Shown: one piece after another, positions 2-3,562 of the stretch
How positions within the stretch are numbered: the first letter of the stretch is position 1
How the letters are laid out: every line of letters begins with the position of its first letter
NCBI GenBank assembly: GCA_945860295.1
Contig: CAMAQH010000043.1
Location: 1 to 32,974, forward strand
DNA from: Prosthecobacter debontii
GTDB taxonomy: Bacteria; Verrucomicrobiota; Verrucomicrobiia; Verrucomicrobiales; Verrucomicrobiaceae
Length of the DNA stretch: 32,974 bases
Direction of reading: 5' to 3'
Program-made: the position numbers and the translations under genes
Notes under the pieces: generated by a model
Told to the model about the DNA's origin: nothing
The model's database searches: none
The model's input: the letters and a program-made list of their open reading frames with translations, nothing else

Positions 2-184
2 ATTGAGCAGAACCTCGAATACTGTTGCTGGGCGCAGAAGCGCATCGCTCGCATCGCGGCTGATCCTTCAATTCAAGGATACGCTGATGGTGTGTTCTGG
101 GAGCGCAACAGTCTGAGCGACCAAAAAGCCGAAAAGGTGCCGGCCCGCGTGCCTGAACCAATGCTTACTCTTTTCAATGAATAA
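2..184 (+). CDS. C-terminal end of a probable DNA (N4/N6) methyltransferase, partial
   Basis: The reading frame is open from the window edge to TAA at 182-184 and encodes about 60 residues. It begins with IEQNLEYCCWAQKRIARI, which resembles the segment after motif I in beta-class N4/N6 DNA methyltransferases (typically GIEQNPEY...A..RI), followed by a short tail ending LTLFNE. Catalytic motifs would lie upstream of the window, so the family call is an inference from this short stretch. The stop overlaps the next start by 8 bases (ATGAATAA), meaning tight translational coupling of the kind seen between a modification gene and its restriction partner. The tail could belong to another protein if the resemblance is fortuitous. 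Confidence 0.5.
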   Translation: MEQNLEYCCWAQKRIARIAADPSIQGYADGVFWERNSLSDQKAEKVPARVPEPMLTLFNE

Positions 185-1334
185 CCCACTTCAGGACTTT
201 GTTCGCTTCGTTGCAGAGCGGGACGGCATCAATGACAAAGGTGCGCTTTCTCAGGCGGTGGTCACACGGTTTGGCCTGACGAAAGACCGGTCGGTCTTCT
301 ATTGCGCCGACTTCGCGGTGCGGTTTAGCGCCTCGGCCAGTGTGAACTTCGGCAACACGGTGCTTTCCTTGTCGAACTTGAAAAAGTTCGACGACAGACC
401 ATTCGTCGTCTGCCTCGTGACTCCGACTGCAAACCACTGCTTCTTGGCCAACACGACGCTGCTAAAGAAAATCAGTCACAGCTCCCAGGAACTTCGCGAA
501 AACAACATCAAGGGAAGCTTCAACGGGTCCGACATCATCCGGAGCTTTGAGGGCATCCCGAATAACGCCACCAATCTGGAGAGGCTGTTTGAGATACACG
601 CCGGGGTCGGCTTTGATGGGAACCTTGTGCGGTTGGTGGAAGCCACGAACAACATTTCTCCCACAGGCGCAAAGTTTGGGGTTGGGGCTGCTGAAGAGGC
701 TGCGATTCTCAGCGCGCCGAAACGGGCGGCGAACTTCGTAATCTCAGCCGATGCCCAAACATTGAAGGCCGAGTTGGACGCGAAGGTGGAGAAATTCAAG
801 AACGAGATCCTCTTGGCGTCGCTCATTGAGAACGTGAACGTCCGAGGACGAATCATTGAGTATTTGATCGCCGGGGAAGATGAGAAGCTTCGGGGCGAGT
901 TGGTCCACGCGTTGAAGAACCGCGAAAAGGGAATCCCAGCGTTTAAGACTGAAAACGCGCTCGGTGACTACCAGCGCATCTTCGATGCGTATCACACGGA
1001 GACCGACGTGAAGACGAAGATCATGATCCTCAACTCCAACCCGAAGGCATACAATATTGATAAAATGCTGGAGTTCCTGGCCCATGAAAAATCCGTGTTC
1101 ATGTTTTACTTCGTTGGCGTCGACGCGACCAAGATCGTGAACACAGTCTTGGTCTCAATGTTCGAGACGAACCTGTTGAATTGCACCATCGTTCTTCGGC
1201 ATTGGGCCGGTCGGAATTCACGAGGGGTAACGCAGTTCGAGGGAAAGACGATCAACTCGTTGATAGGCTCGCCCACGTTCACGATTGATCCGGACGCTGC
1301 TGCCGTCTTCCTGCGCAAGCTCATCGCACTGTAG
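177..1334 (+). CDS. Putative type II restriction endonuclease partnered with the upstream methyltransferase
   Basis: This 385-residue soluble protein has no signal peptide and no membrane segment. Its ATG overlaps the end of the probable methyltransferase gene, the main reason to suspect a restriction enzyme. The C-terminal third (about 275-385) looks most conserved: a hydrophobic segment FMFYFVGVD precedes [18 protein letters not shown], a compact polar stretch such as an enzyme core or DNA-contacting loop might have. I cannot assign a PD-(D/E)xK, HNH or GIY-YIG active site with certainty, nor a recognition sequence. The stop codon TAG (1332-1334) lies directly against sequence coding for the interior of HsdR, so this gene marks the right edge of an inserted or replacing cassette. 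A non-nuclease partner of the methyltransferase is possible. Confidence 0.45.
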
Positions 1335-1363
1335 GCTGCTGGCCGGGCGACCGTCGCGCGGGC

Positions 1364-3562
<2,199 letters not shown>

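Follow-up and report, generated by a model that had tools for sequence, protein, structure and literature searches.

A predicted C-terminal PD-(D/E)XK restriction endonuclease of the PADLOC REase_II family, linked to an adenine-type methyltransferase in Prosthecobacter debontii

Introduction

SwaI, HincII and EcoRV are restriction enzymes that leave blunt ends, and a Type IIE enzyme is one that needs a second, uncut copy of its site. In the available sections of one published account, the EcoRV site is given as D74, D90 and K92, carried on the second and third strands, and both EcoRV and HincII are placed in the beta branch (PMC4081073). The available sections of two further papers describe Sau3AI as a tandemly duplicated PD-(D/E)XK enzyme, in which a degenerate C-terminal repeat binds an effector site (PMC1189080, PMC548270).

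Here, we compare with these systems a gene pair at the left edge of a 32,974-nucleotide stretch of Prosthecobacter debontii DNA (the window, contig C43, 1-32974). The pair consists of an endonuclease gene and the tail of a methyltransferase gene (Table 1). Our main reading, to which we give a probability of about 0.88, is that the window protein is a restriction endonuclease with a PD-(D/E)XK domain at its C-terminus. The family is already held in PADLOC and is ordinary in kind. It gains here a predicted fold, a matching model being absent from Pfam and NCBIfam, and a supposed 'unknown nuclease' becomes a PD-(D/E)XK enzyme that can be tested at specified catalytic residues. The one point of specialist interest is a possibly dead nuclease domain in the N-terminal lobe.

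Table 1. Features of the locus, in window coordinates
Feature	Position	Strand	Evidence or remark
Adenine-type DNA methyltransferase, C-terminal 60 residues, cut by contig start	2..184	+	similarity to L002 methyltransferase
Predicted Type II restriction endonuclease, 385 aa	177..1334	+	PADLOC REase_II PDLC03461
N-terminal lobe, residues 1-186, candidate pseudo-nuclease domain	177..734	+	model, Foldseek, VIA
N-lobe conserved loop SHSS...NIKGSF, residues 100-115	474..521	+	S100-S103, N110, G113-F115 invariant
C-terminal PD-(D/E)XK catalytic domain (predicted), residues 187-385	735..1331	+	VIA match to SwaI
E228, first helix of C-domain (220-232)	858..860	+	E in 20/21 rows, one Q
D264, first catalytic acid (predicted)	966..968	+	21/21 alignment rows
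D277-V278-K279, (D/E)XK part of site	1005..1013	+	strand 273-282 of model
HWAGRNSRG loop, residues 342-350	1200..1226	+	between model strands 338-340 and 351-353
hsdR (Type I restriction subunit) without N-terminal part	1337..3562	+	TIGR00348, PADLOC REase_I PDLC03040

The endonuclease gene and its family

The endonuclease frame (177-1334, forward strand) has an ATG at 177, 385 codons and a TAG that ends at 1334. A second frame enters from the window edge and stops at 184, giving an 8-base overlap. The preliminary description of this DNA had reported a 385-residue protein coupled to a probable methyltransferase in just this way, and the coupling is borne out by the upstream tail, which shares 90% identity with residues 291-350 in the methyltransferase frame at locus L002. 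The candidacy of the protein as an endonuclease is likewise upheld: PADLOC REase_II (PDLC03461) spans residues 6-385, profile positions 5-384 of 384, with an E of 6.2e-154. The same profile is matched by all three of the relatives scanned with PADLOC. The confident match falls on a nuclease family; no such match to a non-nuclease family appeared. Because the PADLOC match is full-length, because 16 relatives are found in a genome-contig collection (one scan; identity 91% to 40%) and because dN (0.047) lies far below dS (0.389) in the comparison with L002, giving a dN/dS of about 0.12, these comparisons mark the frame as a genuine gene rather than a chance one.

Beyond PADLOC, the family leaves little trace in reference collections. 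Scans of the window endonuclease against Pfam, NCBIfam and PHROGs found no family, and the 16 alignment members searched against Pfam gave single matches to two families (E 0.018 and 0.17), which we take as noise. A search of PDB sequences returned unrelated chains as its best matches (E 0.99 and 1.5), with none found via profiles, and tblastn against phage and plasmid collections gave no match. A literature search on duplicated SwaI/EcoRV-like lobes or Sau3AI structures, with REBASE and subscription papers outside its scope, returned nothing on this endonuclease family.

The distribution of the family is rare and patchy. In the phylum of the window genome it occurs in 4 of 387 genomes, one of them with a 37-position piece only, and it was found in none of the three other genomes listed for the genus. 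Two other phyla yielded 3/398 and 2/124 genomes, counts that take in the centre genomes and those known beforehand. The record titles of the 16 relatives name Verrucomicrobia, Myxococcales, Zixiibacteriota, SAR202, Hydrogenedentes, Comamonadaceae, Pirellulaceae, Cloacimonadota, Poseidoniales and others, and two scans of a viral-contig collection gave eight distinct contigs with relatives.

The counts below refer to 28 relatives in which the catalytic segment is readable (L002-L019, L028-L033, L038, L040, L042, L045). A 37-position piece of the N-lobe (L020) is excluded from all counts, and L034-L037, L039, L041, L043 and L044 repeat loci already counted. The 28 are not all independent, since L031 and L032 are near-identical. 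In a divergent subfamily with about 40% identity (L016, L017, L030-L033, L038), the methyltransferase gene either lies downstream of the nuclease gene or occupies the other strand, and the aligned members have a gap of about 22 residues ahead of the catalytic acid. At L032 (1099-6705), the pair lies between genes that PHROGs assigns to a phage terminase large subunit and a portal protein, and the flanks at L031 and L038 (1089-6550) resemble those of L032 by sequence.

The linked methyltransferase

The methyltransferase is truncated by the contig, the window beginning at base 1 of C43, and its type must be read from complete homologues. In the two that were scanned (L002 and L005), DPPYNL lies ahead of DPFLGSG, an order that we take to indicate an adenine methyltransferase of the beta order, and PADLOC MTase_II (PDLC03371) is matched. 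All 28 relatives carry a methyltransferase frame of the RAPRNRT...DPPY type within the stretch that was fetched. In 21 of them it lies upstream of the endonuclease gene and on its strand, in one (L016) it is on that strand but downstream, and in six (L017, L030-L033, L038) it is on the opposite strand. A stricter methyltransferase pattern missed ten of these loci (L016, L017, L019, L029-L033, L038, L040), at which the genes were present on inspection. Where the order is the same as in the window, the 8-base overlap is exact in 13 of the 16 pairs measured (window included), the remaining three overlapping by 17, 4 and 20.

Three other observations concern the arrangement of the pair. An extra open reading frame separates the two genes at L033. 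At L014 (3574-6026) an insert breaks the nuclease gene, at L030 (2499-3596) an in-frame stop does so, and at both loci the methyltransferase gene stays open.

The linkage thus extends across bacteria and one archaeon in three gene arrangements, and a gene order that varies while the methyltransferase partner stays constant is what would be expected of a cognate pair. On sequence grounds, we assign the endonuclease and the methyltransferase to a Type II restriction-modification pair. As the predicted activity and specificity derive from sequence and modelling, one might instead picture a modification-dependent (Type IV-like) nuclease, or one of some other kind, that sits beside a methyltransferase by chance; with the partner retained in every relative through all three arrangements, we regard this as highly improbable.

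The catalytic domain

The preliminary description recognised no active site in the protein and considered that it might have a divergent or new restriction fold. The alignment contradicts the first of these statements. The window protein and all 28 relatives (29/29) share a motif D264-x12/13-(D/E)277-[VI]-K279, the full form being D-x12/13-(D/E)-[VI]-K-T-K. Residue 277 is D in 20 and E in one of the 21 alignment rows, and K279 is invariant. Typical (D/E)XK strands, IEVKTK or VDIKTK, occupy this place in the divergent subfamily (identity about 40%). These residues make up the predicted PD-(D/E)XK site of the endonuclease, which escaped the eye because its first acid belongs to LGDY and not to a PD pair.

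Does the predicted structure agree? The full-length AlphaFold model, built from 16 alignment rows, has a pLDDT of 83.7 and a pTM of 0.63. Its C-terminal part runs helix 220-232, strands 265-268 and 273-282, helix 294-301, and strands 306-315 and 320-327. In the model, this is the order of elements expected of PD-(D/E)XK enzymes, with the putative site on the central strands. When this model was compared by VIA, residues 182-385 matched SwaI at Z 11.9 (3.5 A, 162 residues aligned), a further SwaI value being 11.1, and the C-domain also matched HincII at Z 8.2 and EcoRV at Z 8.0; this comparison covers the families on the tool's list, with MutH-like and other unlisted folds outside it. Foldseek with the full-length model placed HincII first, at E 0.0025 to 0.07, and the 50 matches listed include one dehydrogenase. 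The likeness is one of fold only, none of SwaI, HincII and EcoRV having been retrieved when PDB sequences were searched with phmmer and with profiles.

In the profile and structure searches that had been suggested, the model gave the SwaI match, PDB profiles gave no match, and Foldseek returned nothing at E <= 0.001 for either the full-length or the N-lobe model. The Foldseek values of the full-length model, together with the empty Pfam, NCBIfam and PHROGs scans, are what speaks for a divergent or new restriction fold that lacks the classical site. Set against them are a D...(D/E)XK motif conserved without exception, its location on the expected strands of the model, and the extent of the SwaI match. 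A new fold is accordingly very unlikely, and the C-domain is better described as resembling SwaI, HincII and EcoRV.

A C-terminal HWAGRNSRG block had been singled out as the likely core. Its strong conservation stands, the block being nearly invariant and W343, G345, R346, S348, R349 and G350 strictly so. Its role as the core does not, since the model puts it in a loop outside the catalytic strands, a lower-confidence stretch (residues 341-350, pLDDT about 65). In the PD-(D/E)XK reading, the loop probably contacts DNA, and this is more likely, judging from the model, than a place in the catalytic core.

The N-terminal lobe

The nature of the N-terminal lobe is more evenly balanced. Modelled alone from 21 rows, it has a pLDDT of 88.3 and a pTM of 0.78. 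Foldseek gave no E below 0.015 among the 50 matches listed, all 50 of which we take to be nucleases of the restriction-endonuclease-like fold. By the same assumption they represent about eight kinds, with many chains repeated: DpnI, HincII, PvuII, SwaI, Hjc-type resolvases, RecU, a splicing endonuclease and SPARDA. In the VIA comparison the lobe matched SwaI at Z 7.8 (rmsd 8.1 A), HincII at 7.2 and EcoRV at 6.0, bearing in mind the tool's warning that a Z under 8 may reflect a common arrangement. Rows 1-43 are chains of these three enzymes only, and the first non-nuclease row comes at Z 4.8.

If the lobe is a nuclease domain, it would seem to be a silent one. In its core strands (residues 33-66) no column is acidic in at least 18 of 21 rows; acids stand at residue 37 in 17 rows and at residue 45 in 14 rows, and R49 is invariant. 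We consider it an even chance, on the model, that the lobe is a catalytically dead PD-(D/E)XK-like pseudo-nuclease. A reading of nearly comparable standing, though somewhat short of even odds, makes it an unrelated alpha/beta domain for recognition or dimerisation, whose likeness to PD-(D/E)XK enzymes comes from a common arrangement of elements. The middling VIA scores are in keeping with that alternative, as is a PDB profile search with the N-lobe alone, which gave no match. So, too, is the comparison of the two halves by hhalign: residues 1-186 against 187-385 scored 13.6, with a probability of 0.19%, revealing no relation between their profiles. Since 200 column shuffles gave a mean of 14.1 (sd 2.6, maximum 22.6) and the reversed control 18.96, both above the observed score, an internal duplication has no sequence support. 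It is harder to reconcile an unrelated domain with listed matches that we take to be, without exception, nucleases of one fold, and with the 43 leading VIA rows.

The conserved loop of the lobe (residues 100-115), which is the least confident stretch of the N-lobe model, is probably a DNA contact.

State of the locus

The hsdR gene is a neighbour that lies outside the restriction-modification pair. Its frame opens 3 bases beyond the stop of the endonuclease, and from base 1337 it matches TIGR00348 positions 262-671 and REase_I PDLC03040 from profile position 292 onward. A search of the genome assembly for the HSDR_N domain found it only in a different hsdR, on contig C12. The DNA similarity to L002 (89.4%) and L003 (77.6%) ends exactly at 1334, the endonuclease stop. 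The 3' edge of the pair thus abuts an N-terminally truncated hsdR, which reflects either a real insertion-deletion or an assembly joint.

A short frame at 3806-3991 matches only the final quarter of the YgjP-like metallopeptidase family PF01863 (164-205 of 207) and is apparently a fragment. At the start of contig C18 (L024 1-1175), a second hsdR end, with 91% identity to window 2366-3186, is joined in frame with the start of an hsdM-like gene; the fusion arose either by deletion or as an assembly chimera. A foreign origin of the pair was considered from base composition and dropped: G+C is 0.537 in bases 1-1334 against 0.543 from 3563 to the end, and values so nearly equal give no such signal, the odd one being hsdR at 0.628.

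One possibility is that this genome carries a relic: a pair that landed in a decayed Type I locus and may no longer work. The shortened hsdR and the yjgP/YgjP-type fragment that follows it fit this picture, and two relatives have broken nuclease genes (the insert at L014 and the in-frame stop at L030). Moreover, the remainder of the methyltransferase was not found elsewhere in the genome assembly; the only other match, on contig C19, was rejected, being 28% identical and part of another methyltransferase gene. However, it is precisely the contig end that cuts the methyltransferase, and its missing remainder may reflect an assembly gap, and the 385-codon frame is open with the low dN/dS against L002 reported above. 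We consider a relic unlikely.

Proposed mechanism

How would the pair act? The methyltransferase would methylate adenine in a short, presumably palindromic site, and the endonuclease would bind the same site, unmethylated, in invading DNA. Cutting would be by a Mg2+-dependent PD-(D/E)XK site (D264, D277 and K279) in the EcoRV/SwaI-like C-terminal domain, and the ends would probably be blunt, by likeness to SwaI, HincII and EcoRV. The N-lobe would most likely serve as a DNA-binding or allosteric partner, in the manner of the dead lobe of Sau3AI, or complete a pseudo-dimer.

Comparison with known systems

The closest PDB relative of the partner methyltransferase is 8urk (E 1.1e-35), which we take to be the M.BceJIV-type adenine methyltransferase and whose target is presumably GTWWAC. 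The two are too distant for the target to be carried over, and an assignment of the window pair's target by analogy was dropped. PADLOC REase_II PDLC03461 shares a full-length family match with the window endonuclease; its output gives no described member, mechanism or site, and the structural interpretation comes from the present analysis.

R.SwaI (5tgx, 5tgq) is likewise a Type II enzyme, and its fold is like that of the C-domain. Its chain has 225-226 residues, whereas the window protein carries an extra lobe of 180 residues, and at 10% identity no sequence relation between the two was found. HincII and EcoRV also resemble the C-domain in fold, and EcoRV likewise has an acidic-acidic-lysine site; both differ from the window protein in being single-lobed chains of about 10-14% identity to it.

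If the N-lobe is indeed a dead nuclease domain, the nearest parallel is Sau3AI, a Type IIE enzyme that, in the available sections of the papers on it, combines an active and a degenerate repeat in one chain (PMC1189080, PMC548270). As far as those sections go, the dead copy of Sau3AI is C-terminal and MutH-like, whereas the candidate dead copy described here is N-terminal and nearest to SwaI, HincII and EcoRV, and its branch would differ too. We suggest, tentatively and at a little under even odds, an independent and reversed version of the Sau3AI architecture: a dead N-lobe and an active C-lobe, both EcoRV/SwaI-like, forming a single-chain pseudo-dimer in which each chain has one active site. 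Such a protein would behave either as a Type IIE enzyme or as a monomer that nicks strand by strand. A Type IIE enzyme of this design would work as two chains, with the dead lobes holding the effector site. A true dead lobe would provide a second, separate case of a duplicated nuclease domain with one copy silenced, and would bear on the origin of two-site (Type IIE) enzymes.
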